A DNA stretch of 64,000 nt, taken from positions 2,604,001 to 2,668,000 of the forward strand of contig NZ_AP017315.1 in the NCBI RefSeq assembly GCF_002355395.1, read 5' to 3'. The translations under genes were made by a program, and so were the position numbers. The notes beneath the pieces are model-generated. The model was not told where the DNA came from. It searched no databases and saw only the letters and a list, made by a program, of their open reading frames with translations. Of the stretch, positions 16,398 through 58,709 are shown piece after piece. Each line of letters begins with the position of its first letter. The stretch's first letter is position 1. The stretch is from Microcella alkaliphila. Lineage in GTDB: Bacteria; Actinomycetota; Actinomycetes; Actinomycetales; Microbacteriaceae.

Positions 16398-16424
16398 TCC
16401 CGCAACGAGCGTGAGGAGCGCACC

Positions 16425-21078: not shown

Positions 21079-21090
21079 CAACACCCCGTT

Positions 21091-21127: not shown

Positions 21128-21130
21128 CAA

Positions 21131-39242: not shown

Positions 39243-39402
39243 CTGTCTCAGGACATAGGAAACCCTCGAACCTCTTGGTTCGGGGGTTTTCTGCGTTTTC
39301 TGTGTTCTTGGGGGCCTTTGGGTCGCCCGGTTGGTTGATAGTCGCGGCTGGTGTCGATGGTGAGTTCTCGGAGTAGTTCGCCGGTGGCGGCGTTGATGAT
39401 GG
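39231..39402 (-). mobile_element. Right-end fragment of an IS481-family element
   Basis: Read on the minus strand this piece matches the end of the IS481 copy at 55889-58617: the codons INAATGELLRELTIDTSRDY and QPTGRPKGP, the terminator hairpin, and the terminal repeat ending TGTCCTGAGACAGGACA. Only about 160 bases survive. Its inner side is joined to the 50-base IS3-type inverted repeat at 39403. Confidence 0.85.
39261..39288. terminator. Hairpin terminator at the IS481 end
   Basis: AACCCTCGAACC and GGTTCGGGGGTT pair around TCTT, followed by TTT. The same hairpin occurs at the right end of the IS481 copy at 58568-58595. Confidence 0.7.
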
Positions 39403-40790
39403 TGAATCGCCCCGGGACACATCAGGCCCTCCACGAGACCCGGGGCGATTCAATCGACGCAGACAATGCCGAGTCGCGCGCTGCGGTTGCTCGGGACGAA
39501 AACGCCAAGACGGAGTGGTTGGAGACGCTCGGGAAGGATCCCTCGTCTCTCGTGCGCGCAGCCGTGGCGGGCAACTCCAACACTGCTCCCGCTTTGATTG
39601 CGTCTCTTGCGGCGGACCCACACCCCGATGTCACGCGTGCAATCGCGGAGGCCGTCGCGCGCGGCACGTTATCCCTGGCTGCGCTTGAGGCTGTCGCCTC
39701 CTCACCCCACGTTCAGATTCGTGCCTCTGTCGCGAGCAAGCCTGGCTTAAGTCGCGGAGTCCTACGCATGCTTGTCGCGGACCCCGACGAGTCAGTGCGT
39801 CTAGCCGCCGCGCGCAACGGTTACACCCCCGGGGCCGCAATGTTGGATGCATTGGGAATGGGAGAGTTCAACCAGACTCATAATGTCGGGCAGGGCAGCG
39901 TTGTCAGTCTTTGCGATTTGGCTGCAGACACTACCCTTGGGTCGAAAGCGCTTCATGCGCTGGCGCAGTCGCCGTTTGGGCAGGTGCGTGAATCGGTCGC
40001 GAAGAACTCCTCTACGTCGGCGGCTACCCTTGCGAATCTGGCGCGTGACAAGAGCTCTCAGGTCCGAGAAGCAGTCGCATCTCATCCAGCAACTCCGATG
40101 GGTGTTCTGACAACCCTTGCGTCGGACGGGGTAGCGACGGTGCGTGGAGCCGTGGCGTCGAATCCAGCCACGCCCACTGAAGCGCTGATCCTGCTCGAGC
40201 GGGAACCAGACGAGGAAGTTGCACTCGCAGTCGCATTGCATCCGAACATACCGACGAGTTCGCTCGGCGCACTCGTCGAAGTTCCCACAAAGGCGAGACT
40301 CAGTACTCCTGGCACACGTGCCCGCTCACGGTTGGGCCCCGAAGGCGCCTGGCCCATCATCTATACGCCAGAGCAGCGCAAACTGATCGATCAGCTTGAT
40401 CGCAGCGACAATCGCTGGCATCAGGGTGTTCGGCAAGCGGTGGCCTCACACCCGCCCGTATCGGCCGAGGTGTTGCTCCGTCTTTCGCAGCAGCCGGATA
40501 CCGTCGTCTTTGTCGCCCGCAATCCCCGCACCCCGAGCGTTGTCCTGTCGCAGTTGGCTCGTCACAATGACCCGCTTGTCCGCGGGGCCTTGGCCGCTCA
40601 TTCGCAGACGCCGGAAACCGACCTAGCGAGTCTCGCGCTGGATGACTCCGAAGGCGTGCGAGGAATCGTCGCTGCGAATCTGCGCACGCCAACCCACTCA
40701 TTGGAGATCCTCGCAAGTGACTTCTCTCCGCGGGTGAGGGAAGTATCGCAGGCCACGCTGTCCTTGAGGGGTGACTCGTCAGCGGATTGA
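39351..40790 (+). CDS. LRV/HEAT-like helical repeat protein with IS-derived N-terminus
   Basis: From about residue 35 the protein is built of roughly 24-residue helical repeats of the leucine-rich-variant type, with recurrent units such as VREAVASHPATPMGVLTTLA, VRGAVASNPATPTEALILLE and VRGALAAHSQTPETDLASLA. About 15 units to residue 479. Upstream of 39453 the frame runs through the IS3-type inverted repeat and, antisense, through the IS481 remnant; the only starts (ATG 39351, GTG 39402) are in this debris and the next ATG lies well inside the repeats. So the native 5' end has been replaced. It may be silent or express a chimeric protein. LRV proteins are thought to bind protein or nucleic acid partners. 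Confidence 0.6.
   Translation: MSMVSSRSSSPVAALMMVNRPGTHQALHETRGDSIDADNAESRAAVARDENAKTEWLETLGKDPSSLVRAAVAGNSNTAPALIASLAADPHPDVTRAIAEAVARGTLSLAALEAVASSPHVQIRASVASKPGLSRGVLRMLVADPDESVRLAAARNGYTPGAAMLDALGMGEFNQTHNVGQGSVVSLCDLAADTTLGSKALHALAQSPFGQVRESVAKNSSTSAATLANLARDKSSQVREAVASHPATPMGVLTTLASDGVATVRGAVASNPATPTEALILLEREPDEEVALAVALHPNIPTSSLGALVEVPTKARLSTPGTRARSRLGPEGAWPIIYTPEQRKLIDQLDRSDNRWHQGVRQAVASHPPVSAEVLLRLSQQPDTVVFVARNPRTPSVVLSQLARHNDPLVRGALAAHSQTPETDLASLALDDSEGVRGIVAANLRTPTHSLEILASDFSPRVREVSQATLSLRGDSSAD
39403..39452. repeat. Perfect 14-base inverted repeat, IS3 ends with no interior
   Basis: TGAATCGCCCCGGG (39403-39416) and its exact complement (39439-39452) enclose 22 bases. The right arm continues inward as TCTCGTGGAGG, like the IS3 end at 28135 (TTTGATGGAGG). 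Both ends point inward, so this is what remains of an IS3-type element after loss of its whole interior. Confidence 0.75.
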
Positions 40791-40973: not shown

Positions 40974-41405
40974 ATGACGGCGGCGTTGAATCGCTTGTTT
41001 GGCGCTACGCGTTGGGTTCACAACGAGTACATCGCCAGAGCTCGTGCCTCCTACGAGGCCGGTCACGGTCACCTCTCCGGGTACACAGGTCAGAGACTTG
41101 TCGTAACCGACGGCCGCGCAAATCCCGAAACCGCGTGGCTGAAGGAGTTTCCTTCCGGCGTGTTTCGCGGGTCGGTTACTCGCGCGGCCACCGGTCACCA
41201 GTCGTTCATTGCCTCGACTAGTGGTCGCCGCAACGGCCCTCGGTTGGGGCGCCCGCGGAGCAAGAAAAAGACAGCACGGCAAAGCGCCGAGTTCCCCCGT
41301 GCCGCGTTCTCAATCCGCGGCGGGTGGGAGAACACCCGCGCTCACGGAGTCGGACAGCTGAAGCTGTCAAAGATCGGTCCCGTCGACAGTCACGATCACG
41401 CGTGA
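40974..41405 (+). pseudogene. TnpB (IS605/IS1341-type) N-terminal fragment
   Basis: ALNRLFGATRWVHNEYIARA, then YEAGHGHLSGYTGQRLVV, NPETAWLKEFPSGVFRGSVT and LGRPRSKKKTARQSAEFPRA are the N-terminal region of TnpB-type RNA-guided nucleases. The first 20 or so residues of the family are missing, and the frame ends before the RuvC core and zinc ribbon. Sequence after 41405 contains VTITREADGT in another frame, also TnpB-like. I see no catalytic residues left, so it cannot be a nuclease. Confidence 0.75.
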
Positions 41406-41794
41406 GGCGGACGGCACCTCAGGAACCCGCCGGAGCGGCAGCGCCTCCTCGGCGCTGTAGTCAGACGGACGTAAGCCTGCAATTGGCCTACGGGGACAAT
41501 GACGGTGATCCGCCGCAGCATTGGGGTCCAGCGGGTTGCCGGAATCGCTCAACCGGGGACGGTTTGCTCCGTGAGGCTCCTCGACGTGAAAAAAATAGGA
41601 GGTGGCCATCTCGGAAGTAAGTGCGGAATTATCGCCAGGAGCTGATCCTGCACGGTGTTGAAGAACTCACCGCTCAGCGAGACGTCAGCTTTCGGGGGCA
41701 CCGCGGCCTCTCTGAAACGATCCGACGAGAGTTTGCACTCTTGACACGCGGGCGAACTCCTGAAATCGATTTATCCGGGCTAGAGTCCTGTTCC
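41406..41794. other. Decayed IS sequence and lacI leader
   Basis: No intact gene. 41406 to about 41635 is probably the shuffled tail of the TnpB element. 41639-41693 resembles the right end of the IS256 copy at 56145-57549: AGCTGATCCTGCACGGTGTT here against AGCTGATCCCGCACGTTGTT there, ending in GACGTCA in both. The lacI control region follows. Confidence 0.5.
41741..41786 (+). promoter_or_regulatory. lacI control region with operator
   Basis: GAAATCGATTT (41762-41772) is the same palindrome that covers the promoter of the downstream binding-protein gene. TTGACA lies at 41741-41746, though it has no -10 at the proper spacing. TAGAGT (41781-41786) ends eight bases before the ATG at 41795 and would give a leaderless lacI message. 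Binding of LacI here would be autoregulatory. Confidence 0.6.
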
Positions 41795-42790
41795 ATGGCA
41801 ACCATCTACGAGGTCGCGACGCTGGCTGGCGTCTCCCCAGCCACGGTGTCGCGGGTGCTCAATGGCGCAGCGGTCTCGCCCGAGAAGGCCCGTCTGGTTC
41901 GTGAGGCGGCGGCCCAACTGCAGTACACGCCGAACCGCACAGCTCGACGACTGCGCAATCAGAGTTCTGAACTCATCGCCTTGCTCATACCCGATATCGA
42001 GAATCCTTTCTTCACTGCACTCGCCCGGGGCGTCGAGGACAAAGCGCAAGCAGCCGGTTACTCAGTAGTGCTGTGCAACACCGACGATGATCCGGAGAAG
42101 GAGACGCGCTACTTGGATATCGCGAACTCAGAGGACATGGCGGGCGTGATCCTGGCTCCCGCATCCGAAGATGGTGATATTCGACACGCGACCGATCGCG
42201 GACGCCCCGTGGTCGCAGTGGACCGCAACACCGGACTCAATATTGATTCGGTCATGGTCGACAACCGACCAGCGGGAGCCGACGCCACGACGATACTCCT
42301 CACAGCGGGTTTCGAACGGGTTGCGTGCATCGCAGGACCCCTCGGAACAGAGGCCACGGAAGAGAGAAGTCTCGGCTGGCGACAGGCACTTGAGAAGGCT
42401 GGCAAGAGAGATCTCGTTGCTCGCTACCTCCGACACGCAAACTACCGAGTCGACGGAGGGCGGGAAGCGATGACCGCACTCTTGAACCTTCCCGATCCAC
42501 CCGACTCGGTCGTGACGACCAACAACCTGATGGGAGTCGGCGCCCTGCAGGCGCTCTCCGAAGCAGGTGTCTCACCCGACGAATTCGGTGTCGCCATCGT
42601 CGGCGACCTGCCCTTCTCGACGTTGCGCGCAGACGCCATAACGCAGGTACACCTTCCCGCTCGCCATCTCGGCACGACGGCCGCCACGATGCTTCTCGAG
42701 CGGATCGCCGGCGACGAACAGCCCGCAAGAACCGTTGTTCTACGGGCTGAGATCACGCGGGGGGCGGCACATCCGCCCCAAGACTTGTGA
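41795..42790 (+). CDS. LacI-family transcriptional regulator
   Basis: 331 residues from ATG 41795; the frame is open upstream but the HTH begins here (MATIYEVATLAGVSPATVSR, then VLNGAAVSPEKARLV). The effector domain follows: LIALLIPDIENPFFTALARG, VVLCNTDDDPEKETRYLDIA, DSVVTTNNLMGVGALQALSE. It lies 134 bases upstream of the sugar-binding-protein gene, and the palindrome GAAATCGATTT(C) precedes both, so it most likely represses the operon until the sugar or a catabolite binds. Confidence 0.92.
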   Translation: MATIYEVATLAGVSPATVSRVLNGAAVSPEKARLVREAAAQLQYTPNRTARRLRNQSSELIALLIPDIENPFFTALARGVEDKAQAAGYSVVLCNTDDDPEKETRYLDIANSEDMAGVILAPASEDGDIRHATDRGRPVVAVDRNTGLNIDSVMVDNRPAGADATTILLTAGFERVACIAGPLGTEATEERSLGWRQALEKAGKRDLVARYLRHANYRVDGGREAMTALLNLPDPPDSVVTTNNLMGVGALQALSEAGVSPDEFGVAIVGDLPFSTLRADAITQVHLPARHLGTTAATMLLERIAGDEQPARTVVLRAEITRGAAHPPQDL

Positions 42791-42859
42791 AGCTCTGCAA
42801 TCGGTTTCTGAGCCTCTAGCCAGCAAAACACTGGGCGCGAGCTCCGGAAGAGATGCACT

Positions 42860-42890
42860 TGACGAAATCGATTTCTTCCGTTCTACTGGA
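42860..42890 (+). promoter_or_regulatory. Promoter and LacI operator of the sugar operon
   Basis: TTGACG (42860-42865) overlaps the perfect 12-base palindrome GAAATCGATTTC (42865-42876), a typical LacI-family operator with a central CG. A -10 of type TCTACT (42883-42888) follows at 17 bases. The operator lies in the spacer, so a bound repressor would block polymerase. Confidence 0.7.
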
Positions 42891-42924
42891 GACAGCCGAT
42901 TCTCAACGGAGAGGACTCCCCACC

Positions 42925-44241
42925 ATGAAACACAGCAAGCGAACACGTGCCGTTCTCGCAGTGACTGCGGCGCTCTCCATGACGGCGCTCGCGGCCTGCG
43001 CTCCAGTGGCGGAGCCCGAGGGTCAAGAGCAAACCCTCAACATCGCATACTGGAACTACGGTCCGCCCGCCGAAGCCGGCAACGAAGCGATCGCGAACGG
43101 CTTCATGGAGGCGAACCCCGATGTCAAGGTGACGTTGACCCCTATCGCTGGCGACAACTGGGGCAGCTACTACGCGAACCTTGCTACCCTTATCGCGAGC
43201 GGCGAGCGGCCTGACCTCGCGTTCACGGCATCTGAGGGCATCAAGTTCCTCTCGGAGAACGGCCTAGTCGTCCCGATCAACGAGTACCTGGAGTCGGACC
43301 CGGATGCCGCCGCCATCCAAGACGACATCGCCTCCGAGCTGCTGGACTCCTTTGCCGTCGAAGGCAACATCACGGCGCTACCTAACGGCTGGAACAACAT
43401 GGTCGTCTACTACAACACCGCGGTCTTCGACGCTGCCGGGCTTCCGTATCCGGAGAGCGACTGGACGTGGGAGGAGTTCCGCGAGACGGCGGCCGCCTTG
43501 TCTGCCGACACCAACGGCGACGGAGTCAACGACCAGTTCGGTTTCACCTGGGCCTCGAACGAAATTTTCCCCGGAATTCTGCCCTGGGTTGCCAACGCTG
43601 GTGGCAATCTCGTCAACGACGACGTCACGGAAGCGACCGCCAACAGCGCTCCGGTCGTCGAGGCGGTGAGCTTCCTCAAGGGACTCATCGACGATGGCAT
43701 CGCACCGGCACCGAGCCCGATGGGAGACATCTTCACGGCCTTCCAGAATGGGAACGTGGCGATGTTCGGCGCAGGACGCTGGCCGAGCGCGACCTTCCTG
43801 CCGGCAGGCTTCACCGATTGGGACATCCAGATCTACCCGACCGGAGCGACCTACCAGACCGTCGCGGGAGCTAATGGGTACGCAATCCTGACTTCGGCTG
43901 CCAACCCTGACCTTGCCTGGGAGCTCCAGAAGTACACGGCAAGCGCAGAGATCCAAGATTCGCTGATCGGAACTCCCGAGGCTCCGCGCGACGCGATTCC
44001 GACGACCCGTTCGACGGCGCAGAAGACCGTGGACGCAGGAATCCCGCCGCAGAACGGAGCGCTCTTCTACGGTTCGGTCGACGACTACCCAGTGCTCTCG
44101 CCCTTCCCGGCACCCGCGCAGTATTCGGAGTACGAGGCCACGGTTCTGCGTTTCGTGCAGCTGATCTTTGCTGGCGAAGTTGCAGTCGAAGACGGGCTAG
44201 ATCAGCTGCAGGCAGAGCTGACCGCTCTAATCAGCGGCTAA
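42925..44241 (+). CDS. Sugar ABC transporter substrate-binding lipoprotein
   Basis: 438 residues from ATG 42925. Lipobox LAAC near residue 25. Family 1 extracellular binding-protein features: YWNYGPPAEAGNEAIANGFM, LPNGWNNMVVYYNTAVFDAA, WTWEEFRETAAALSADTNGD, VAMFGAGRWPSATFL. It is the first gene of the LacI-controlled operon. Two hairpins separate it from the permease genes, a usual way to let the receptor be made in excess. The sugar is unknown; downstream enzymes suggest a 6-deoxyhexose-like compound. Confidence 0.92.
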   Translation: MKHSKRTRAVLAVTAALSMTALAACAPVAEPEGQEQTLNIAYWNYGPPAEAGNEAIANGFMEANPDVKVTLTPIAGDNWGSYYANLATLIASGERPDLAFTASEGIKFLSENGLVVPINEYLESDPDAAAIQDDIASELLDSFAVEGNITALPNGWNNMVVYYNTAVFDAAGLPYPESDWTWEEFRETAAALSADTNGDGVNDQFGFTWASNEIFPGILPWVANAGGNLVNDDVTEATANSAPVVEAVSFLKGLIDDGIAPAPSPMGDIFTAFQNGNVAMFGAGRWPSATFLPAGFTDWDIQIYPTGATYQTVAGANGYAILTSAANPDLAWELQKYTASAEIQDSLIGTPEAPRDAIPTTRSTAQKTVDAGIPPQNGALFYGSVDDYPVLSPFPAPAQYSEYEATVLRFVQLIFAGEVAVEDGLDQLQAELTALISG

Positions 44242-44260
44242 CAGCTACACATCCGAATCC

Positions 44261-44326
44261 GAGCCGATGTTTCGGCTCCTTGATCGAGGGTGGCAGGCAG
44301 GCGGCAAGCCCCTGCCAGCCACCCTC
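44261..44326 (+). promoter_or_regulatory. Intercistronic hairpins between binding protein and permease
   Basis: GAGCCGA/TCGGCTC (44261-44278, TGTT loop) is a perfect 7-base stem followed by CTT. A second, larger stem, CGAGGGTGGC with GCCACCCTCG, spans 44285-44326. They probably stabilise or partly terminate the message after the binding-protein gene. Confidence 0.6.
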
Positions 44327-44343
44327 GCGACGGTGAGGCTCTC

Positions 44344-45222
44344 ATGACTCGACAACGCGACGGCCTCGCGGCGGCAGCATTCCTTGCCCCGTCTGCCGCC
44401 AGCTTCCTGATCTTCGTTCTGGCTCCGACTATCGGAGTCATCGCCCTCAGCTTCTTCAGCTGGAACCTTCTGAGCGACGGGCGGTTCATCGGCACCGAGA
44501 ACTTCGAACGGATATTCACCGACAGACGACTGGCGGATGTCTATCGATCAACCACGTTCATGGCTTTGTCGATTCTGGCCGTCAACATCATCGTTGGCCT
44601 GCTTCTCGCCGTGCTGCTCGAGACGCGAATGCCTCGATGGCTCCGAGGGTTCTTTCGGCTCTCGTTTCTCTTCCCCTTCGTCGTCTCCTCATCGGCCGTC
44701 GCGCTCATATGGCGCTTCCTGTTCAACAAAGACTTAGGCCTCATCAACTACTGGCTTGGGCTCGTCGGACTCGACAGAGTCGACTGGCTCGGCTCCAGCG
44801 CGTGGGCGCCGATCGCTGTGATCATCGTGAGCTCGTGGAAGACCCTAGGGTTCTCGATCCTTGTGTACATCGCAGGCCTTCAGTCAATCCCCGCATCCCT
44901 GAAGGAAGCCGCAATCGTCGATGGCGCCAATGCCTGGCAGCGCTTTTGGCGGATCACCTTGCCACTGCTATCCCCGACCGTGTTTTTCCTTGTCGTGATC
45001 AACACCATCAACGCGTTCCAGATATTCGCCGAGCCCCGTGTGCTCACGCAGGGAGGCCCGGGAGACTCCAGTCGCACCGTCGTTCAGTACATCTACGACA
45101 CGGCGTTCCAGAGCTTTGATCTCGGCTACGCCTCCACGATCAGCATCACGCTGATGCTGATCCTTATCCTGCTCACGCTGATTCAGTTCCGCGTCTCCCG
45201 GAGATGGACACACTACGAATGA
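44344..45222 (+). CDS. Sugar ABC transporter permease, MalF-like
   Basis: 292 residues, six transmembrane helices, starting MTRQRDGLAAAAFLAPSAAS. The EAA loop that docks the ATPase is KEAAIVDGANAWQRFWRITL. The next permease gene overlaps its end by four bases. No ATPase gene is encoded in this operon; such CUT1 systems in actinobacteria often share an MsiK-type ATPase encoded elsewhere. Confidence 0.93.
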   Translation: MTRQRDGLAAAAFLAPSAASFLIFVLAPTIGVIALSFFSWNLLSDGRFIGTENFERIFTDRRLADVYRSTTFMALSILAVNIIVGLLLAVLLETRMPRWLRGFFRLSFLFPFVVSSSAVALIWRFLFNKDLGLINYWLGLVGLDRVDWLGSSAWAPIAVIIVSSWKTLGFSILVYIAGLQSIPASLKEAAIVDGANAWQRFWRITLPLLSPTVFFLVVINTINAFQIFAEPRVLTQGGPGDSSRTVVQYIYDTAFQSFDLGYASTISITLMLILILLTLIQFRVSRRWTHYE

Positions 45223-46070
45223 CGTCACCACTTTCCGCACGGGTTACCGGCGTCGGATCACGCATCCTCACCTTCGGCACCTTGACCATCGCTGCGATCG
45301 CGATCGCAGCTCCGTTCTTGTGGATCTTCCGGGCGGCGCTCTCCCCGAGTGACGCCGAGTTGTATCGACTACCGCCGACGCTCCTGCCGAGCGATCAGAC
45401 GCTCGCGAACTTCGGCAAGGTGTTCGAGCAGGTTCCGTTCACCAACTTCGTGCTGAACTCACTGATCGTCGCCACGTCGATTACGGCCGCTCAACTCATC
45501 ACCTGTTCGACAGCCGGCTACGCATTCGCCCGGCTCAACTTCCGGGGTAGAGGGGTGCTGTTCGCCATCGTCATCGGATCCCTGATGATTCCGATCCAAA
45601 TCACGATCGTGCCGCTGTTCCTCGTGATGTCACGACTCGACCTGACCAACACCCTGTGGGCGCTGATCCTGCCACCCATCTTCAGCGCGTTCGGGATCTT
45701 CCTGATGCGACAACACTTCCTCAGCCTGCCGTACGAACTCGAAGAAGCAGCGCGAATCGACGGAGCCGGACACGCACGCATCTTCTTCCAGGTGATGTTG
45801 CCGCTGTCGGGACCCGCCCTTGCCACTCTCGGGATCATCACCTTTACGTACTGGTGGAACGACCTGCTTCTCCCGTTGGTCATGATCAACGACACCGCGA
45901 CGCAGACACTCCCGGTCGGCCTCGTCCTTCTCGCTGGGCGTTTCTCGACGGGATCCCTCGGGACCATCGCAGCTGGGATCACCTTGGCAATCATCCCGGT
46001 ACTTATCGTCTTCGTGATCGCCCAGAAGTGGATTGTCCAATCCATCGCGTCGAGCGGACTGAAGCTGTGA
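45219..46070 (+). CDS. Sugar ABC transporter permease, MalG-like
   Basis: 283 residues, six helices; start at ATG 45219 within the previous stop. EAA loop: LEEAARIDGAGHARIFFQVM followed by LPLSGPALATLGI. The extracytoplasmic loop after helix 1 (PSDAELYRLPPTLLPSDQTL) is typical of MalG-type proteins. It forms the membrane channel with the preceding permease; the next gene overlaps its stop by one base. Confidence 0.93.
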   Translation: MTSPLSARVTGVGSRILTFGTLTIAAIAIAAPFLWIFRAALSPSDAELYRLPPTLLPSDQTLANFGKVFEQVPFTNFVLNSLIVATSITAAQLITCSTAGYAFARLNFRGRGVLFAIVIGSLMIPIQITIVPLFLVMSRLDLTNTLWALILPPIFSAFGIFLMRQHFLSLPYELEEAARIDGAGHARIFFQVMLPLSGPALATLGIITFTYWWNDLLLPLVMINDTATQTLPVGLVLLAGRFSTGSLGTIAAGITLAIIPVLIVFVIAQKWIVQSIASSGLKL

Positions 46071-46726
46071 TGAGCCTTTCCGCCGCCCACCGCACCGATG
46101 GTGGCATCCATCGGCTCATCGCCACGAGCCGCCAGGTGTGGCGGGAGCTTCCCGCCGCCTTGGCGATAGGCGTGATCACAATCGCGGGCACCATGCCGGT
46201 GGTCGGCTCAGTATTCGCAGGAGCACCCGCCTGGGTTCTCGGAGTCAGTACCCTCCCGTTCTTCCTGGTGTCGACCGGCATCGCGCACGTCGGTGTTCGA
46301 GTGAGCAGAGGGGAGCGCCCACGCGTCGAAAGCCTTGCCCAAGGCGACGTCGGTGTCGCGCTCATCCTCTCGGGCGCGATGACACTTTCGGCAGCCCTGA
46401 TTCAGATCGACGGTGTGGCTCGCGGTGCGGGATTCGCACTCACCGCTCTGACCCTGTTCACCGCACCGATCATCGTCGGGTACGGGGCTATTCGAGACCG
46501 GCGGGGAATCTCGGCAATTCGAGGAGGACTCATTCTCACGGCGGCGAAGCCCCTTGAGGCGGTGACGCTGCTCTCCGTTGGGATACTCGTCAGTTTCGCC
46601 CTGATCGCCAGCGCCGGAGTGCTCGGCCTGGTCGCCCCCGTCTTCCTGGCGACCTTCATCGCTCACACAGTCGCAGGCATGCTGACGGAGCTCGACATCT
46701 ATCCGACATCAGAGTCCGTGTCATGA
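46070..46726 (+). CDS. DUF624/YesL-like membrane protein
   Basis: 218 residues with about five hydrophobic helices (LAIGVITIAGTMPVVGSVFA; VLGVSTLPFFLVSTGIAHVG; LLSVGILVSFALIASAGVLG). Size, layout and position right after the two sugar permease genes fit the YesL/DUF624 group found in many carbohydrate operons. Its molecular role is unknown. Starts overlap on both sides (A of the ATG with the preceding stop; ATGA with the next gene), so it is firmly part of the operon. The sequence match is loose. Confidence 0.65.
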   Translation: MSLSAAHRTDGGIHRLIATSRQVWRELPAALAIGVITIAGTMPVVGSVFAGAPAWVLGVSTLPFFLVSTGIAHVGVRVSRGERPRVESLAQGDVGVALILSGAMTLSAALIQIDGVARGAGFALTALTLFTAPIIVGYGAIRDRRGISAIRGGLILTAAKPLEAVTLLSVGILVSFALIASAGVLGLVAPVFLATFIAHTVAGMLTELDIYPTSESVS

Positions 46727-49050
46727 CCACGAAACAGACCCTCGGGGCACCGTCGCCCGCCGCAGAAAAATCGGCTCAGTCGGTGGGCACGGTGTCTCGA
46801 GATCTCAACGCCACCAGTCCTCATCAAGAAAGATGCCCCTCCATCGTGACAATCCCGCTCCCGCCCGTGACCGGCCCTGATACCGCGTGGTGGACCACGT
46901 CTCGTCGTCGAATCTTCCTTGATTCACACACTCCGGATTGGACTGACCCCCATCAGCGTGGCAACATCGGCGACCCGCACGTGACTCTCCTCTCAGGAGT
47001 TCAACCGGAACAGGACCTGGAGACTCTCGCGACCGCAGGCGTCGACTCGGTCGTGCTCTTCGCGAAATGTCAGTACGGCAACTCGTACTACCCCACCGCC
47101 GTCGGTCGAACACATGGTGCGCTCAACGGCCGCGATCTTTTCGGCGAACAGATCCAGGCAGCACACCGGCGCGGGATCCGGGTGATCGCGTACTTCTCCA
47201 ACATGTGGGATACCGCTGCCGCGGGGGCGAACCCCGACTGGAGACTGGTGCCCTCGCCAGCACGGGGAAGCACGGGCCGCTGGCCGGCGTTGTGTCTCCT
47301 CAGTCCCTACCGAAGCCACGCACTGCGGCACGTGGCAGAAATCGCTGAACGCTACCCCATCGACGGCCTGTGGAGCGACATCCTTACGGCCGGCCCCTGC
47401 GTCTGCGAACGCTGCGAGAGCCTATTCCGTGACCGCTTCGGTCGCGCCATGCCGACGGATCGGCGCGATCCGAACTGGGCTGACCTCATTCACTTCACAC
47501 AAGACATCATCAAGGGCTACTTGGCAGAGCAGCGCGACGTGTTGCGCAGCATCCGACCCCAGTGCGCCCTGATTCCGAACTTCTACGCGACAACGTTCGT
47601 CGATGCCGTCACCGGGTTGTCGACGAGTCACCTCGAGCTTGCCGATATCGGGTCGAGCGAGGGGTACACCGATTGGCACGGCCTCGGGTTCCCCAGTTTC
47701 GCCGCGCGATACATCTCCGCGGGCGTTAACGGTCGACCCAGTGAAGTGCTCGTGAGCCGCTTCGTGCACACCTGGGACTTCACCATGCGGTCAGAGGCAC
47801 AGCTTCGCTTCGAGGCCTTCACCGTGGCCGCTCACGGCGTGACGGTTTCCGTCGACGATCAGCCATATGCAACCGGGGCCATCGAGTCCGAGGTCTACCG
47901 GCGCTTGACCACGGTGTTCCAGACCATCACGGAACGGGCGCCCTGGCTTGAGCAGGCCACCCCGGAACGCTACGTCGCTCTCTATGCCAGCCAGCGAGCG
48001 CGCGAGCTGGAGAGCATCCTCGGCGATGACGAGCGCCCACCCCTCGGAGAGCAATCGGCACAGTTTCCCCCGAGCGAACCGCGCACCGCCGCCAGCGATC
48101 TGGTCGCGGCCGTCACGGGAACGTATCGCTCTCTCGTCGAGGCGCATTTTCCCGTGGCCATCATGGATGAGCGCGCCGAGGCCCTGTCAAACCTGAAGGA
48201 TTTCGCGGTGCTCGTCCTTCCCGACGTGCTCTCTCTCTCGCATTCCGAGATCACCGCGATCGACGCCTTCGTCCGCGCGGGCGGCGGCCTCGTGGTCACC
48301 GGAGAAGCAGGAACCCGTGACGCGCGGGGCCAGCAACAGGAGATGCATCCGACGCTGACGGAACTGCTCGGAGTTCGATTCGGCCCAGCGCTCGATGACC
48401 CGTACCCGTACATCCGACTGGAAGGGGAATGGGCGGAGAAACTCGGTTCGTGGCCGATTCCGCACTACGGCCGAATCCCTCAGTTGATCGATGTCGCACC
48501 AGATGTGACGACTCTCGCAACAAGAATCCGATCGGTGCTGACCACAGACGAGTCGACTTACTGGCACAACAACCAGCCGGCGCCGGGGGTCACCACACTC
48601 GAACCGATCATCGTCGAACGGTCGGTCGGCGCAGGGAAGGTCATCGTTTCCGCAGCACGTCTTGGCAACAACAAGGCGCGACAAGGCCACGGAACGTATC
48701 GAGAGCTGATCACCAGCCTTGTCCAGCGAGTGGCACCGAACCCTCCGACCATGGAGGTCGTCGGGGCCTTCCCCAACACGGAGGTCGTTGTCGCCCGTCA
48801 GCAAGATCGCCTGATCGTTCATCTCGTCACCGGGCACCCCGTCGTCGCGTTGGACGTCGCCGGGGCGGCACAGCCCGCCGCCATCGAAGAAGTCGCCCGC
48901 CTGTCGGAGTTCACGCTCCGTGTCGCTGGAGCGCTGTCAGCGGCCCGAGTCGTCGCGGGAGCGGAGCACAACCTACCCATCGACGACGGCCGTGTGACCC
49001 TCACGAATCTCACCGATTGGGAGACGCTCGTCTTCCGACTCAACAGCTAG
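46723..49050 (+). CDS. Putative glycoside hydrolase (Hyp-GH6-like barrel plus beta-galactosidase trimerisation-type domain)
   Basis: 775 residues, no signal peptide, so it acts in the cytoplasm. Residues about 75-390 look like a TIM barrel: AGVDSVVLFAKCQYGNSYYP, RGIRVIAYFSNMWD, YPIDGLWSDILTAGPCVCER and FVHTWDFTMRSEAQ. CERCESLFRDRFG after a DGLWSD strand is the pattern of the hypothetical glycosyl hydrolase 6 group, related to fucosidase and beta-galactosidase barrels. Residues about 420-650 resemble the trimerisation domain (DFAVLVLPDVLSLSHSEITA; FVRAGGGLVVTGEAGTRD). The Asp of WSDI is a candidate catalytic residue. Between transporter and isomerase genes, it probably splits an imported glycoside. 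Confidence 0.75.
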   Translation: MTTKQTLGAPSPAAEKSAQSVGTVSRDLNATSPHQERCPSIVTIPLPPVTGPDTAWWTTSRRRIFLDSHTPDWTDPHQRGNIGDPHVTLLSGVQPEQDLETLATAGVDSVVLFAKCQYGNSYYPTAVGRTHGALNGRDLFGEQIQAAHRRGIRVIAYFSNMWDTAAAGANPDWRLVPSPARGSTGRWPALCLLSPYRSHALRHVAEIAERYPIDGLWSDILTAGPCVCERCESLFRDRFGRAMPTDRRDPNWADLIHFTQDIIKGYLAEQRDVLRSIRPQCALIPNFYATTFVDAVTGLSTSHLELADIGSSEGYTDWHGLGFPSFAARYISAGVNGRPSEVLVSRFVHTWDFTMRSEAQLRFEAFTVAAHGVTVSVDDQPYATGAIESEVYRRLTTVFQTITERAPWLEQATPERYVALYASQRARELESILGDDERPPLGEQSAQFPPSEPRTAASDLVAAVTGTYRSLVEAHFPVAIMDERAEALSNLKDFAVLVLPDVLSLSHSEITAIDAFVRAGGGLVVTGEAGTRDARGQQQEMHPTLTELLGVRFGPALDDPYPYIRLEGEWAEKLGSWPIPHYGRIPQLIDVAPDVTTLATRIRSVLTTDESTYWHNNQPAPGVTTLEPIIVERSVGAGKVIVSAARLGNNKARQGHGTYRELITSLVQRVAPNPPTMEVVGAFPNTEVVVARQQDRLIVHLVTGHPVVALDVAGAAQPAAIEEVARLSEFTLRVAGALSAARVVAGAEHNLPIDDGRVTLTNLTDWETLVFRLNS

Positions 49051-49058
49051 GAATACCG

Positions 49059-50702
49059 ATGCCGAACTACACCCTGCCTTCCGCGCCAGCACGTCCGAAA
49101 CTCGAGCCCACGACCGCGTGGCTAGTTGCTAGCGGTGACCTCCGCGAGGCGCCGAACAAAGCCGGTTGGCCGATCCAGGCCGCGATGGAGGCCGAGCTGG
49201 CCCGCGTGTTCGCGGATTTGGGGTGGACCATCAAGCGAGCACACCCCGTCGATGCCGAGACCGGGCACGGCTTCATTTCCAGTCAACGCATGGGCCTCGA
49301 GGTGTTCCGGAACATCCCAGTCGATGCCCCCCTCGTCGTCGCGGAATCCGTCTGGCAGTACAGTCATCACCTTCTGGCGGGCCTCCGCACCCATCGAGGG
49401 CCGATCTTGACGGTGGCCAACTTTGAAGGCAGTGCGCCCGGTTTGGTTGGTCTTCTCGGGTTGAACGGTGGCTTGACGAAGATGGGCACCCCTTACTCAA
49501 CGATTTGGAGTGTGGACTTCCGGGATCAGTGGTTCATCGAGGGAATCCGAAGCTGGATCGAGAGCGGCACGATCGAACACGACCAACGTCACGTCCGCGC
49601 ACTCGACGCCCTTCCGGAGAACCACGAGGTCGCGCTCGGGCGGGCCCTCGCCGCGCAGTTGCAGGCAGACAAGGCCATCTTCGGCGTCTTCGACGAGGGT
49701 TGCATGGGTATGTACAACGCGATCATCGACGACGAACTGATGAATCCCCTCGGCATCTACAAGGAGCGACTGTCGCAATCTGCACTCTGGGCCGAGATGC
49801 TGACCGTCGATGAAGTCGAAGCGCGGGCGGTACTCGAGTGGCTACTGTCACGGGGCATGACCTTCCAGTTCGGCCGGGACGAGCACTCAGAACTGACAGA
49901 GCACCAGGTTCTCATGCAGGCGCGGATGTACATCTCGCTCTTGCGCATCGCTGATGATTTCGGGCTCGATGCCATCGGCATCCAGTACCAGCAGGGCCTC
50001 AAGGACATCTGCCCAGCATCCGACCTCGCGGAAGGTCTCATCAACAATGGCGACCGGCCCCCGGTGACCAGCCGCGACGGGTCTCGGGTGCTGTGGGAAG
50101 GCCTCCCGGTGCCTCTCGCGAATGAGGCCGACGAAGGGGTCGCGATCGACGCCCTCGTCACGCATCGAATCTGGCAAGCAATGGGTCTGGATTCTGCCAA
50201 CACACTCCACGACGTACGGTGGGGCGAAGATTACGAGGGCCAATTCGTCTGGGTTTTCGAGATCTCCGGTTCGGTTCCCCCGTCGCACTTTGCTGATGGC
50301 TACGCAGGGGCAACGGGATGGCGCCAGAACCCGATGTACTTCCCGCTTGGCGGCTCAACGATCAAGGGCGTCTCCAAGGCCGGTGAGATCGTATGGTCCC
50401 GCGTCTATATCAAGGGTGGCAGCCTTCACGTCGACATCGGCCGCGGGTCCGCGATCGACCTCCCCGCCGAGGAGACGGAGCGGCGGTGGCAGGCAACGAA
50501 TCCGGAATGGCCCATCATGCACGCCGTCCTGCACGGTGTCAGCCGCAACCAGTTCATGGCGCGCCACAAGGCGAACCACGTCCAGGTCGCCTACGCACCA
50601 TCGGCCGAGGTTGCCGACAGGGCACTGGCCGCCAAGGCGGCAATGTTCGATGCTCTCGGAGTGGCCGTGCACCTGATTGGTGACGCTCAGATCGTGCGAT
50701 GA
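49059..50702 (+). CDS. L-fucose isomerase-like protein
   Basis: 547 residues from ATG 49059. Overall pattern of the fucose/arabinose isomerase family: GPILTVANFEGSAPGLVGLL, FGVFDEGCMGMYNAIIDDEL (candidate metal-binding Glu/Asp), LDAIGIQYQQGLKDICPASD, and the C-terminal SRNQFMARHKANHVQVAYA, typical of FucI. Other members convert an aldose to a ketose with Mn2+. It lies before an FGGY kinase and a FucU-like mutarotase, the classic fucose-type set. The exact sugar is not given by sequence. Confidence 0.85.
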   Translation: MPNYTLPSAPARPKLEPTTAWLVASGDLREAPNKAGWPIQAAMEAELARVFADLGWTIKRAHPVDAETGHGFISSQRMGLEVFRNIPVDAPLVVAESVWQYSHHLLAGLRTHRGPILTVANFEGSAPGLVGLLGLNGGLTKMGTPYSTIWSVDFRDQWFIEGIRSWIESGTIEHDQRHVRALDALPENHEVALGRALAAQLQADKAIFGVFDEGCMGMYNAIIDDELMNPLGIYKERLSQSALWAEMLTVDEVEARAVLEWLLSRGMTFQFGRDEHSELTEHQVLMQARMYISLLRIADDFGLDAIGIQYQQGLKDICPASDLAEGLINNGDRPPVTSRDGSRVLWEGLPVPLANEADEGVAIDALVTHRIWQAMGLDSANTLHDVRWGEDYEGQFVWVFEISGSVPPSHFADGYAGATGWRQNPMYFPLGGSTIKGVSKAGEIVWSRVYIKGGSLHVDIGRGSAIDLPAEETERRWQATNPEWPIMHAVLHGVSRNQFMARHKANHVQVAYAPSAEVADRALAAKAAMFDALGVAVHLIGDAQIVR

Positions 50703-52177
50703 GCGTCTTCCTCGGTGTCGATATCGGCACGTCGTCAACCAAGGGCGTGCTGGTTCACGCGGACGGCACGATCATCGGGCAGGCCGTTCGCCACCATCGA
50801 CCAACGCGGCCGCATCCGGGCCATGTAGAGATGGCCATGGAGCTGTGGTGGGAGGAGTTCATTTCCCTCGCACGCGAGTTGGGGGATGGCCACTCGGTCA
50901 GCGCTGTGGGTGTGAGCGGAATGGGTCCATGCGTCGGCCTCGCTGATCACGATGGCATCCCGACACGACCCGCGATCCTCTACGGGGTCGATACCCGGTC
51001 TACCCCTCAGGTTGATCGGCTGACCGGCGAACTGGGTGCTGACGCTCTCCTTGCACGGTGTGGATCAGTCCTCTCCAGTCAAGCGGCTGGCCCGAAGATC
51101 CAGTGGGTTGCGGAGAACGAACCGGACGTGTTTGCCCGCTCCACACGGTTCTTCATGCCCGCGTCTTGGCTGGCCTGGAATCTGACGGGTGCGTACGTAC
51201 TCGATCACCAATCGGCCAGTCAGTGCACACCGCTGTACGACATAGAGAGCCACGAGTGGTTCGATTCGTGGGCCTTGCCCATTACTCGACACCTTGAACT
51301 TCCACATCTAGTGTGGGCACACTCCGTGATCGGAGCAGTGACGGAGGACGCCGCGCTCGCGACAGGACTGCCTGCGGGCATTCCCGTCATCGCCGGCACG
51401 ATCGATGCGTGGACCGAAGCGGTCAGTGTCAACGGGCACGGCATCGGCGACCTCATGCTCATGTACGGAACAACGATGTTCCTCATCAACACGGTGCCGC
51501 AGCCCGTGCGGGTTCCGACCCTCTGGGGCACCGTCGGAGCATTCCCTGGCACCCACTGTCTCGCGGGAGGAATGGCAACCTCTGGTGCCGTCATGGAGTG
51601 GGTTCGCGAGGTGACTGGCGGGAGCAACCACGAAACCCTCATGCGAGAAGCCGGGACCTCGGGGCATGGCGCTCGCGGCCTGCTCATGCTTCCCTACTTC
51701 GCCGGTGAACGAACCCCCATCTCCGACCCGGATGCACGAGGAGTCATCATCGGTCTCACGACAGAGCACTCTCCGGCTGATCTCTATCGAGCAGGCCTGG
51801 AGGCCACGGCATTCGGAGTCCGACACAACATCGACACCATGCGGGCGGCCGGCGGCGACATTCGGCGGCTTGTCGCGGTGGGCGGAGGAACTCAGGGGGA
51901 CCTCTGGATGCAGATCGTCTCTGACGTGACCGGCCTGCGGCAAGATGTTCCCGCAGTGACGGTTGGTGCCAGCTTCGGCGCCGCCTACCTCGCAGCGCGC
52001 GCTGTCACGAGCGTCAGCATCGACGAGTGGAACCCCGTGCTCCGAACCGTCGAGCCCGACAGTTCGACGCGAGACTTCTACGACCAGCGATTCGCTCTCT
52101 ACCGAGAGCTCTACTCCGCCACGGCACCGATCGTGCACGCTCTCGCTCAATCTCCACGGAGGGAGCCGAAAACGTGA
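50699..52177 (+). CDS. FGGY-family carbohydrate kinase
   Basis: 492 residues. N-terminal ATPase motif LGVDIGTSSTKGVLVHADGT, substrate region GVSGMGPCVGLADHDG, FGGY second signature VGGGTQGDLWMQIVSDVTGL with the catalytic Asp in an upstream GTIDAWTEAV context. It overlaps the isomerase gene (ATGA) and the mutarotase gene. In a fucose-like route it would phosphorylate the ketose made by the isomerase; xylulose-type specificity is also possible. Confidence 0.92.
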   Translation: MSVFLGVDIGTSSTKGVLVHADGTIIGQAVRHHRPTRPHPGHVEMAMELWWEEFISLARELGDGHSVSAVGVSGMGPCVGLADHDGIPTRPAILYGVDTRSTPQVDRLTGELGADALLARCGSVLSSQAAGPKIQWVAENEPDVFARSTRFFMPASWLAWNLTGAYVLDHQSASQCTPLYDIESHEWFDSWALPITRHLELPHLVWAHSVIGAVTEDAALATGLPAGIPVIAGTIDAWTEAVSVNGHGIGDLMLMYGTTMFLINTVPQPVRVPTLWGTVGAFPGTHCLAGGMATSGAVMEWVREVTGGSNHETLMREAGTSGHGARGLLMLPYFAGERTPISDPDARGVIIGLTTEHSPADLYRAGLEATAFGVRHNIDTMRAAGGDIRRLVAVGGGTQGDLWMQIVSDVTGLRQDVPAVTVGASFGAAYLAARAVTSVSIDEWNPVLRTVEPDSSTRDFYDQRFALYRELYSATAPIVHALAQSPRREPKT

Positions 52178-52599
52178 CTCTCAAGAACGTCCACCCGCTG
52201 TTGTCAGGGGAACTCCTGCTGGCGTTGGATCATCTCGGCCACGGTGACGCCCTGGTGGTCGTTGACCGGAACTACCCGGCCTACACGAGCGGCGCCCCTG
52301 TCGTGAGACTCGATTCCCATTCACGCGAGGCGGCAGAAGCGATCTTGAGCGTTTTCCCTCTCGACGCGACCGGAGTCCCGATGCTCGTGATGGAGGCACC
52401 ATCACAACCGGATCGAAGTGCCCCCACCATGCGTGACGTCGGAGCGATCGCTCGCCGGATCGAGGGACGGGACATCGAAATCGTGCAACTCGAGCGTCAC
52501 GCGTTCTACGACCGCGCACAGTCCGCTCGGCTCGTCATCCTGACGCGGGAATCCGAACCTTACAGCGACCTGATCTGGATCAAGGGGGTTGTCGCCTGA
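52174..52599 (+). CDS. RbsD/FucU-family mutarotase
   Basis: 141 residues from GTG 52174 (GGAGGGA site), overlapping the kinase stop. Seen: LKNVHPLLSGELLLALDHLG with the catalytic His, HGDALVVVDRNYPAYTSG, and FYDRAQSARLVILTRESEPY near the end, which matches FucU (Tyr and Arg of the active site). It interconverts sugar anomers for the isomerase. Last gene of the operon; an IS3-family element starts 270 bases on, and no aldolase gene is found. Confidence 0.9.
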   Translation: MTLKNVHPLLSGELLLALDHLGHGDALVVVDRNYPAYTSGAPVVRLDSHSREAAEAILSVFPLDATGVPMLVMEAPSQPDRSAPTMRDVGAIARRIEGRDIEIVQLERHAFYDRAQSARLVILTRESEPYSDLIWIKGVVA

Positions 52600-52896: not shown

Positions 52897-53861
52897 CTAT
52901 GCGGGCGTCAACACCGGGTGGTGCGACGCGTCGAGGTCAGCGTAGTAGTCGGCCTCGAACTCTTCAGGGGGCACGTTGCCGAGGGTCGAGTGCAGGCGCC
53001 TCGCGTTGAACCACTCGACCCATGCCGCGGTCGTCCATTCGACATCATCGATCGTGCGCAGCGGTCCGGTTCGGAACGGTGATCCGTCACGGATGGCCTC
53101 GTTCTTGAACAGCCCGATCGCGGACTCAGCCAGCGCATTGTCGTAGGCGTCGCCGACGGAGCCGATTGAGGCGGCGATGCCTTCCAGGCCCCAAGTTTCG
53201 GCGAAGGAGACACTGGTGAATTGCGATCCGGCGTCGCTGTGATGCACCAGCCCGTCGCCAACGTGGTGCCCGGCGCGGTCGCGTCGCCACAACGCCATCC
53301 GCAACGCGGTGGTCACCAGCGGCGTCGTCTTGGTGGTCGCGGCATGCCAGCCCACGATTGCGCGGGAGAAGCAGTCGACAACGAACGCGACATATACAAA
53401 CCCTGCCCACGTGCGCACATAGGTGAAGTCCGCAAACCACCGCGTATTCGGGGCAGAGGCGGTGAAGTCGCGATCCAGCAAGTCCGGAGCGCGGGTCGCC
53501 GCGGGATCCGGCACCGTTGTCCGCACGCCCCTGCCGCGCACCAGCCCTCTGATGCCCAACTTGCGCATCACCCGATCGACGCGCCTGCTGGAGGCGGCGA
53601 TCCCTCGTCGGCGCAGCAGCGCGGTCATCTTCCGCCGCCCATAAAGCGACTCCGGCGTCGCCTCACCCTTGTCGTCCACGCGGGCGGCGCGGATTGCCTC
53701 GATCAGGTGGGCGTCGTCGATATCTCGCTGACTGGGCTGGGCACGCTTCCAGCCCCGATAGGTGCGCTCGGCGACCGGCACGCCCTGCTCACGCAGAACC
53801 TTGCAGATCGACCCGACCGAGCGGCCAAGACTGCGCTGCTCCTCGATGAAGGCGAGGATCA
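52897..53861 (-). CDS. IS3-family OrfB (integrase domain)
   Basis: From ATG 53781 the frame reads VPVAERTYRGWKRAQPSQRD, LYGRRKMTALLRRRG, NTRWFADFTYVRTWAGFVYV (first Asp), HHSDAGSQFTSVSFAETWGL (second Asp) and DNALAESAIGLFKNEAI (Glu), ending VLTPA. Conserved residues before the ATG (LAFIEEQRSLGRSVGSICKV) show that the natural product begins upstream by a -1 frameshift from orfA, so I extend the feature to where orfA ends. The catalytic triad is intact, but orfA is split by IS30, so the fused transposase cannot be made. Confidence 0.88.
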
Positions 53862-53915
53862 GCGGCGTCGGGGGTCGAGTTCCCCGGCGAAGAAAACCGC
53901 TGCATCGCGAAGGAT
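53859..53915 (-). pseudogene. IS3 OrfA, 3' fragment
   Basis: Encodes the last 18 residues of OrfA (ILRDAAVFFAGELDPRRR) and its stop. It is separated from the main orfA part at 55151-55437 by the IS30 insertion; joining them across one copy of the ATC duplication restores RRANEILRDAAVFF. Confidence 0.9.
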
Positions 53916-55150
53916 CGGCGGATTCAACCGGTCAGCGCAATGAGTGCTGTGAGATGAAGCAGACGCTGATCTCGGGAGGCATTCGTTGCAGGGCAAGCAT
54001 GGTCATCTCAGTCGTGAGCAGAAGCAGCTCGCGCTCCGTCTCCACTCGAAGGGGTGGCGGCTCATCGATATCGCCCGCGAGATCGGCTGCACGGCCCCGA
54101 TGGTCGGCCGCATGGCGCGGGAAGGGCGTCACCTCGACGGGAAGCCGTTCGGCTGGGAGCCGCGCGAGGGGCATCTGACGGTCTTCGATCGTGAGGAGAT
54201 CCTGGTTGGTCTCGCGCGCGGTGACACGTTGACCGCGATCGCGCTCGCCCTGGGACGGGCGGTGTCGACGGTCAGCCGCGAGGTCAAGCGCGGCGGCGGG
54301 CGGGAGGGGTACTCGGCGTGGCGGGCGCATGAGGACGCGCGAGAGCAGGCCCGCCGACCGAAGCCGTTCAAGCTTGACGGTGGACGGCTGCTCGAGGTTG
54401 TCGCGACGCAGCTGGAGCAACTGTGGTCTCCGCAGGAGATCGCCGCCCGCCTACGGTTGGAGCATCCCGACGACCCGGAGATGCACGTGAGTCACGAGAC
54501 GATCTACCAGTCCCTGTTCGTGCAGGGACGCGGGCAGTTGCGCCGCGAGCTTGCCCGCTGCCTGCGGTCAGGGCGTGCGGCACGGAAGTCGCGGACCGCG
54601 ACGGACCGGCGAGGCCGGCTGCCAGGGATGGTGATGATCAGCGAGCGCCCCGCGGAGGTCGAAGACCGCGCCGTGCCGGGGCATTGGGAAGGCGACTTGA
54701 TCCTCGGTGAGAACAGTCGCAGCGCCGTGGGAACCCTCGTTGAACGCAGCACCCGCCTCACACTTCTGCTGCACCTGCCCGACGGGAAGAGCGCCGACAA
54801 GGTGGAGGCCGCAATGCGCGAGGCGATCACCGCGTTGCCGGCGTCGCTGGCGCGGACGATCACCTGGGATCAGGGCGCCGAGATGGCCAAGCATTCCGAG
54901 TTCACGACAGCGACCGGCATCCCGATCTACTTCTGCGACCCGCACTCCCCGTGGCAGCGCGGAAGCAACGAGAACACCAACGGACTGCTACGCCAGTACC
55001 TGCCGAAGAGCACCGATCTGAGCATCGTCACCCGCGCTGAGCTGACCGCGATCCAGGACTCGCTCAACGGACGACCACGCAAAACGCTCGGCTATCTGAC
55101 ACCATCGGAGAAGTTCACAGAACTCGTTGCGACCACCGGTTGAATCCGCC
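53916..55150 (+). mobile_element. IS30-family element nested in IS3 orfA
   Basis: Perfect 16-base terminal repeats GGCGGATTCAACCGGT at both ends (53916-53931 and the complement at 55135-55150), and a 3-base duplication ATC on either side (53913-53915 and 55151-55153). 1235 bases. Its target is the 3' part of OrfA, at the same codon region as the IS30 copy at 30143. Confidence 0.95.
53986..55143 (+). CDS. IS30-family transposase
   Basis: 385 residues from TTG 53986. HTH part: LSREQKQLALRLHSKGWRLI, DIAREIGCTAPMVGRMARE; second HTH: GDTLTAIALALGRAVSTVSR. DDE part: VPGHWEGDLILGENSRSAVG (Asp), ITWDQGAEMAKHSEF (Asp), SPWQRGSNENTNGLLRQYLP (Glu). Intact and probably functional. The stop lies inside the right terminal repeat. 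Confidence 0.93.
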   Translation: MQGKHGHLSREQKQLALRLHSKGWRLIDIAREIGCTAPMVGRMAREGRHLDGKPFGWEPREGHLTVFDREEILVGLARGDTLTAIALALGRAVSTVSREVKRGGGREGYSAWRAHEDAREQARRPKPFKLDGGRLLEVVATQLEQLWSPQEIAARLRLEHPDDPEMHVSHETIYQSLFVQGRGQLRRELARCLRSGRAARKSRTATDRRGRLPGMVMISERPAEVEDRAVPGHWEGDLILGENSRSAVGTLVERSTRLTLLLHLPDGKSADKVEAAMREAITALPASLARTITWDQGAEMAKHSEFTTATGIPIYFCDPHSPWQRGSNENTNGLLRQYLPKSTDLSIVTRAELTAIQDSLNGRPRKTLGYLTPSEKFTELVATTG

Positions 55151-55437
55151 ATCTCGTTCGCACGCCGCAACTCGCGGACTTCCTGCTCAAGCTCCCGCAC
55201 TCGTCGGGCGTCGGTGGTGCTCACCCCGGCGACGTGGCCGTCGTCGATGTCGGCCTGCTTGACCCACGTGCGCACGGACTCGACTCCGTACCCGAGCTGC
55301 GACGCGACTCTCTGCACCGTCCCATGCTCGGTCCCCAACTCGGTCCGCAAAGTCCGCACCATCCGGACCGCTGCCGCCTTCTCTTCCGGCGAATACCGAC
55401 GTGCAGTCGGCTTCCCAGCTCCCTGATTCGACACCAT
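55151..55437 (-). pseudogene. IS3 OrfA, 5' part
   Basis: Starts at ATG 55437 (MVSNQGAGKPTARRYSPEEK). It has the HTH VASQLGYGVESVRTWVKQAD and the leucine-zipper-like VRELEQEVRELRRANE; coding then runs into the IS30 end. The rest of the gene is at 53859-53915. Confidence 0.9.
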
Positions 55438-55491
55438 GACTCCATCCTCGTTTCCAAGGTCAGGAGTCTCCAACAAACTCAGGGCGCTTCA

Positions 55492-58618: not shown

Positions 58619-58709
58619 TGGCGGTGACGGTGGGATTTGAACCCACGGTAGGGGGTTACCCTACACAACTTTTCGAGAGTTGCACCTTCGGCCGCTCGGA
58701 CACGTCACC
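58619..58709 (-). tRNA. tRNA-Ser (anticodon CGA)
   Basis: Read on the minus strand: acceptor stem GGTGACG with CGTCACC, discriminator G and encoded CCA. The anticodon stem GCAACT/AGTTGT holds the loop CTCGAAA, so the anticodon is CGA (codon UCG). The variable arm is long (GTAGGGTAACCCCCTAC), as in class II serine tRNAs, and the T loop GGTTCAAATC is standard. 91 bases. IS481-type elements have inserted immediately 3' of it. Confidence 0.95.

Follow-up and report, generated by a model that had tools for sequence, protein, structure and literature searches.

A nine-gene operon of Microcella alkaliphila (family Microbacteriaceae), located on the + strand at positions 41795 to 52599 of a 64,000-nucleotide stretch of contig NZ_AP017315.1 (referred to here as the window), probably constitutes a complete D-arabinoside utilization unit; we assign this reading a probability of about 0.7. 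Gene content, orthology, a shared operator sequence, protein fold, and the strand-end positions of putative catalytic residues were computed, while the substrate, its ring form and linkage, the position phosphorylated, the location of the hydrolase, and all activities are predicted. In the proposed pathway, a LacI-family regulator, orthologous to that of D-arabinan clusters of the family, would control the operon via GAAATCGATTTC operators. An ATP-binding cassette (ABC) importer, presumably served by an ATPase from elsewhere in the genome, would take up a small D-arabinoside, from which a cytoplasmic hydrolase resembling glycoside hydrolase (GH) family 151 would free D-arabinose. A FucU-like protein would accelerate anomer exchange, a FucI-like isomerase would convert D-arabinose to D-ribulose, and a XylB-type kinase would yield D-ribulose 5-phosphate. 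Because this product would enter the pentose phosphate pathway, no aldolase would be necessary.

The gene set and its place agreed with the original prediction, as judged from open reading frames (ORFs) and Pfam domains (called at gathering scores unless stated otherwise). The operon begins with the regulator gene (41795 to 42790; 331 aa; LacI and Peripla_BP domains), followed by genes for the sugar-binding protein of the importer (42925 to 44241; SBP_bac_1, 102.6 bits; lipobox judged by eye), permease 1 (44344 to 45222; BPD_transp_1), permease 2 (45204 to 46070; BPD_transp_1), and a 218-aa membrane protein (46070 to 46726). The start codon of permease 1 was checked as the ATG at 44344; the open frame begins with a GTG at 44290, and the Pfam search input began at 44335. 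The remaining genes encode the hydrolase (46723 to 49050; GHL6 and Glyco_hydro_42M), a candidate D-arabinosidase; the FucI-like aldose isomerase (49059 to 50702), a predicted D-arabinose isomerase; the FGGY kinase (50699 to 52177; FGGY_N/C), a predicted D-ribulose 5-kinase; and the FucU-like mutarotase (52174 to 52599; RbsD_FucU). From permease 1 to the mutarotase, adjacent genes overlap or lie no more than 10 bp apart, in keeping with the single overlapping unit described previously, and the unit indeed contains neither an ATPase gene nor an aldolase gene. The label "YesL-like" given to the membrane protein did not hold: neither this protein nor three of its orthologs matched any Pfam family, even at an E value of ≤1. 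Its orthologs (33 to 42% identical) are present in most orthologous operons.

The operon is tied to the D-arabinan clusters of the family by a shared operator pair, which precedes the importer genes here and GH183 in relatives. A putative LacI-type operator (GAAATCGATTTA; 41762 to 41773, + strand) begins 33 bp upstream of the lacI start codon, and a motif scan revealed a pair of putative operators before the importer genes, the first (GCAATCGGTTTC; 42797 to 42808, + strand) 67 bp upstream of the second, which is a perfect palindrome (GAAATCGATTTC; 42864 to 42875, + strand). A site 31 to 33 bp before lacI was observed in seven of the nine loci with the GHL6 hydrolase (the window, L009, L010, L013, L014, L015, and L017, the last at 32 bp), and none at that distance was found in L011 and L012. 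Site pairs spaced by 67 to 69 bp occur before the importer in eight of the nine loci; L014 has a single perfect copy. In two clusters with GH183 (L092 and L093), a pair spaced by 68 bp sits 47 and 66 bp, respectively, before the start of the GH183 ORF; in L092, the sequence of the pair is identical to that in L009, L010, and L017.

Sites with at most two mismatches to GAAATCGATTTC were then counted against a first-order Markov expectation (five draws per locus). There were 33 sites (3.4 expected) in the nine GHL6 loci, 30 (1.0 expected) in five GH116/GH183 loci, and 37 (7.2 expected) in 18 isomerase cassettes, the motif having been picked from 21 of these test loci. The control groups, which were unused in picking, contained 13 sites (10.4 expected) in 13 loci (i.e., the host's own ara/rha regions, E. 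coli fuc, and distant hydrolase relatives) and 4 sites (4.0 expected) in five loci of other phyla.

Orthology led to the same clusters. GH183, GH172, and GH116 genes occur together in four clusters of the family (L089/L090, L091, L092, and L093), whose LacI and isomerase proteins are 60 to 62% and 64 to 68% identical, respectively, to those of the window; a kinase of the window type is present in three of the four (58 to 62% identical). In an isomerase tree of 35 rows (one a duplicate; several inner forks weak), the window belongs to a 27-row group (branch support, 88/98); one group of D-arabinan clusters branched outside this group and a second one within it. The FucI-like gene is present in 40 of 299 genomes of the family, and 23 of these 40 also encode the window-type kinase (E ≤ 1e-90). 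In 22 genomes, the two genes are no more than 2.7 kb apart (no more than 1 kb in 19), and in the other (G054), they are on different contigs. GH183 matches were detected in eight of the 299 genomes; all four strong ones (E < 1e-65) have a FucI-like gene within 15 kb. Likewise, GH116 catalytic-domain matches were detected in 17 genomes, and for each of the five strongest (E < 1e-40), a FucI-like gene is no more than 10 kb away. Given 40 of 299, the chance of four of four is 0.0003 and that of five of five is 0.00003, with kinship ignored, as in all our counts across genomes.

The kinase scored 292.5 bits against the NCBIfam XylB model (cut-off, 380.25) versus 86 bits against the fuculokinase model TIGR02628 (cut-off, 470.9), and it is 25% identical to E. 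coli FucK. Judged by these comparisons, it is of the xylulokinase type, and its product should be a pentulose 5-phosphate, for which no aldolase is needed. The "fucose-type" pathway of the original prediction was not borne out: the kinase is xylulokinase-like, and D-arabinan clusters share the regulator, operator, isomerase, and kinase.

For the isomerase, the resemblance to FucI stood at the level of fold, the structure model being closest to L-fucose and D-arabinose isomerases, and did not extend to the family models. In Pfam, Fucose_iso_C matched weakly, at 31.7 bits against a cut-off of 29.3; the NCBIfam models, including the curated L-fucose isomerase models, gave none, and there was no significant match in the PDB by sequence. 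Since only the C-terminal Pfam domain matched, we name the protein FucI-like rather than FucI. E356 and H507, invariant in 43 aligned sequences, were paired by hhalign with Glu337 and His528 of E. coli FucI, at an E value of 0.028 and a probability of 1.7%; D385 was paired with Asp361 by eye only. These three residues of E. coli FucI are its metal ligands. Many actinobacterial proteins are labeled "fucose isomerase," and this annotation merits re-examination.

The hydrolase was said previously to belong to a family of no assigned activity. This is wrong, as GHL6-domain enzymes include characterized alpha-L-fucosidases, now classified in GH151. The hydrolase matched GHL6 at 82.8 bits and no NCBIfam model, and it is similar to a characterized GH151 member over its full length in both sequence and fold; by these comparisons it is related, distantly but from end to end, to GH151 alpha-L-fucosidase. 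The putative nucleophile, D219, is invariant in 53 aligned sequences, ends a strand (215 to 219) in the model, and aligns to chain residue 183 of 6tvk; it would correspond to the GH151 nucleophile D154, at the end of strand 4, if a numbering offset of 29 residues applies. The GH151 acid/base is E235, at the end of strand 6. For this position, the model points to the putative acid/base E313, which ends strand 310 to 313, whereas the sequence alignment places D308 in that column; E313 and D308 are each conserved in at least 90% of the aligned sequences. H615, similarly conserved (at least 90%), lies one column away from His503 of GH151, which completes the active site of the neighboring subunit, in a profile alignment; our model is of the monomer. 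No signal peptide was seen by eye, and the enzyme is predicted to be cytoplasmic.

The ring configuration of D-arabinopyranose is shared by L-fucose and L-galactose, and beta-D-arabinopyranosides have that of alpha-L-fucosides. A GH151 scaffold and a FucI fold could therefore serve D-arabinose. The hydrolase probably cleaves D-arabinosides despite its kinship to enzymes filed as fucosidases, and the operon does point to its substrate, as had been anticipated. We tentatively propose, at slightly under even odds, that the Microbacteriaceae GHL6 enzymes represent a novel type of D-arabinosidase, built on a GH151-type scaffold, that works inside the cell on either D-arabinofuranosides or beta-D-arabinopyranosides, and that some of the enzymes now placed in GH151 may likewise have D-arabinosides as their natural substrates.

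The distribution of the hydrolase is consistent with the D-arabinoside reading of the operon. Among 23 relatives found in named genomes, eight are from Actinomycetota (L009 to L015 readable; L017 cut by a contig end). Whole-genome searches of these eight, which are not independent and include two Leifsonia, detected the FucI-like gene in all eight and the window-type kinase in seven. In a 199-genome sample, all three hydrolase-bearing genomes, one of which overlaps the named eight, also have the FucI-like gene. Furthermore, the gene directly after the hydrolase gene in L010 encodes a GH116 protein that matches ExoMA2 (8ic6), a solved exo-beta-D-arabinofuranosidase, end to end (E = 6.9e-303), compared with E values of 3.5e-21 to 1.6e-15 for other GH116 structures.

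D-arabinose is a rare sugar, best known from mycobacterial cell walls. We compared the operon with the D-arabinan locus of Microbacterium arabinogalactanolyticum, also of the Microbacteriaceae. Its published description reports GH183, GH116, and binding-protein genes induced by D-arabinose, intracellular exo-enzymes, and a putative isomerase and kinase drawn with an exit to D-ribulose 5-phosphate (PMC10509167). The operon is predicted to share the ABC importer, intracellular hydrolase, isomerase, kinase, and D-ribulose 5-phosphate exit. It differs in having a GH151-like hydrolase in place of the exo-enzyme and an additional FucU-like mutarotase; moreover, neither GH183 nor GH116 matched anything in the host genome, and GH172 was not found. 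The orthology described above was established with four clusters of the host family. Compared with the GH151 alpha-L-fucosidase ALfuk2/iso2 of Paenibacillus thiaminolyticus (6tvk), the hydrolase is approximately 20 to 22% identical and its predicted substrate differs. The E. coli fuc operon likewise combines a FucI-like fold, an FGGY kinase, and FucU in one unit. In contrast to that operon, the isomerase of the window is a remote relative, its kinase is of another subgroup, an ABC importer replaces FucP, and FucA and FucO are absent from the unit.

Few families of D-arabinose-releasing enzymes are known (GH183, GH172, and GH116), and a regulon-linked candidate with a confident model offers an opening to a new one. 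Doubt has appeared in print as to whether GH151 enzymes are genuine fucosidases (PMC8395109), and Mfuc3 was reported to be active on p-nitrophenyl (pNP)-fucoside and to show 0 to 2% activity on 2'- and 3-fucosyllactose (PMC4723247). If D-arabinosides are natural GH151 substrates, this would explain the poor activity on many natural fucosides.

Several observations weigh against the D-arabinoside reading. The functions of all genes in the operon are predicted ones, and the nearest solved relative of the hydrolase is a fucosidase; GH151 enzymes cleave some natural fucosyl disaccharides (PMC10154630), and Blon_0346 is reported to act on Fuc-alpha-1,2-Gal. Searches of the host genome (2.70 Mb; one contig; completeness, 100) gave no match for GH183 (PF13810) or GH116 (PF04685) and, in a search in which no positive control gave a match, none for GH172 (PF11175). 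The host thus probably cannot degrade D-arabinan itself, and the small D-arabinoside on which it would grow should come from others that make or release it. The FucI-like gene is missing from the four genomes in which GH183 matched weakly and from the 12 in which GH116 gave only weaker matches. No window-type kinase was found anywhere in the genome of Salinibacterium soli (L009). The 15 remoter hydrolase relatives from other phyla (27 to 42% identical) showed no FucI-like gene in the fetched loci, their whole genomes not having been searched. The operator excess in the test loci is partly due to selection, and three isomerase cassettes (L065, L072, and L075) contained zero sites. Outside the host family, FucI-like relatives adjoin DHDPS, RraA, or ribokinase genes (5 of 22 matching plasmid records inspected), so not every member of the isomerase family would be devoted to D-arabinose. 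Finally, an aldolase-bearing ABC operon adjoins the locus in L010 and L062, as detailed below.

A first alternative, which we regard as unlikely, is a true fucoside operon in which a GH151 alpha-L-fucosidase would release L-fucose, to be converted to L-fuculose and L-fuculose 1-phosphate and cleaved by an aldolase from another locus (i.e., the rhamnulose-1-phosphate aldolase fusion or a class II aldolase near it). The affinity of the hydrolase to GH151 and the presence of FucU-like and FucI-like proteins would fit such an operon, as would the host's aldolases. The genome has three Aldolase_II genes, encoding AraD (PRK06557, 372 bits; cut-off, 251), which adjoins an L-arabinose isomerase gene; a RhaD-dehydrogenase fusion (TIGR02632, 1003 bits; cut-off, 568), which adjoins a rhamnulokinase-like gene; and a class II aldolase with weak FucA scores. 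However, no canonical FucA was found in this genome, the best TIGR01086 match being AraD (66 bits). The cut-off of that model is strict (400 bits), so the finding that none of the 40 genomes with the FucI-like gene exceeded it is weak evidence. The XylB-like kinase and the match of regulator, operator, isomerase, and kinase to D-arabinan clusters also argue against a fucoside operon.

It is likewise improbable that the substrate is a different pentose or one of the other sugars that share this C2-C4 arrangement (L-galactose or D-altrose), with the kinase yielding a different ketose phosphate. The company that FucI-like relatives keep in other phyla (DHDPS, RraA, ribokinase, or SDR genes) and the isomerase's lack of a significant PDB sequence match would allow this, whereas the operator and orthology are common to clusters that bear three D-arabinan-linked hydrolase families. 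Glycoside import, intracellular hydrolysis, isomerization, and phosphorylation, as originally envisaged, are supported as predicted functions.

The absence of an aldolase had also been attributed, as one of three options, to an insertion sequence (IS) after the last gene. An IS3-type transposase ORF does lie approximately 300 bp past the mutarotase gene; the element, which is not part of the operon, spans 52897 to 55476 on the - strand (orfB, 52897 to 53781; part of orfA, approximately 55151 to 55476) and is interrupted by an IS30-type element at 53917 to 55150, with 36-bp terminal inverted repeats (53917 to 53952 and 55115 to 55150) that are 86% complementary. Orthologous loci were searched by BLAST with the host AraD, RhaD, class II, and FBA-type aldolases, and selected ORFs were searched against Pfam. 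No class II or FBA-type aldolase was detected near the unit in six of seven loci (L009 and L011 to L015). The genes after the hydrolase are isomerase and mutarotase in L009; a second LacI, isomerase, and kinase in L011 and L012; kinase, oxidoreductase, and isomerase in L013; kinase and isomerase in L014, which has an importer of a different kind; and mutarotase in L015. The operon of S. soli (L009) also ends at the mutarotase, with an Ada/AlkA gene next. In the seventh locus, L010, a same-strand importer operon (14972 to 21214) starts approximately 230 bp after the GH116 gene. It encodes a FucA/AraD-like aldolase, located 7.3 kb downstream of the hydrolase, together with a second FGGY kinase and an FBA-type protein. 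L062 has a similar operon (918 to 6162), with importer, second FGGY kinase, and FucA/AraD-like aldolase, beside its isomerase-kinase pair. Since six of the seven orthologous loci lack an aldolase and the seventh has one only in the following importer operon, loss to the IS is unlikely, and of the three options, a pathway that ends differently is the best supported. The idea that the IS insertion disrupted an aldolase gene once present downstream of fucU, which the proximity of the IS3-type ORF and the same-strand aldolase of L010 might suggest, is largely contradicted by these six loci, that of S. soli included, and we consider it very improbable.

Some additional observations concern relatives of the operon genes. 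Within the host genus, the isomerase was present in one of five other sampled genomes, and one locus (L081, 8065 to 19900) combines it with an oxidoreductase, GH36, a DUF5703 protein, and a GH116 relative (50% identical to that of L010); it has no window-type kinase and only one operator site, with two mismatches. In hydrolase relatives from Anaerolineae/Chloroflexi (approximately 41% identical; L016, L018, L019, L020, and L022), the genes directly after the hydrolase are orthologous to those for the binding protein and the two permeases. In other phyla (L099 to L102), the FucI-like gene occurs with FGGY kinases and DHDPS, RraA, ribokinase, or SDR genes, in one case on a Klebsiella plasmid segment flanked by two transposase genes; these gene sets suggest further undescribed pathways.

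With regard to genomic setting, the G+C content of the window is 0.60 to 0.65 at approximately 24 to 58 kb and 0.66 to 0.74 on either side, except for the first 2 kb (0.61). This low-G+C stretch (24000 to 58700) holds IS elements and has a tRNA-Ser gene (58619 to 58709) near its right edge; the operon may lie on an acquired island. Upstream of the operon, positions 39351 to 40790 encode a 479-aa protein of leucine-rich repeat variant (LRV) repeats, beside which an ORF (40974 to 41405) resembles, by eye only, a transposase fragment.

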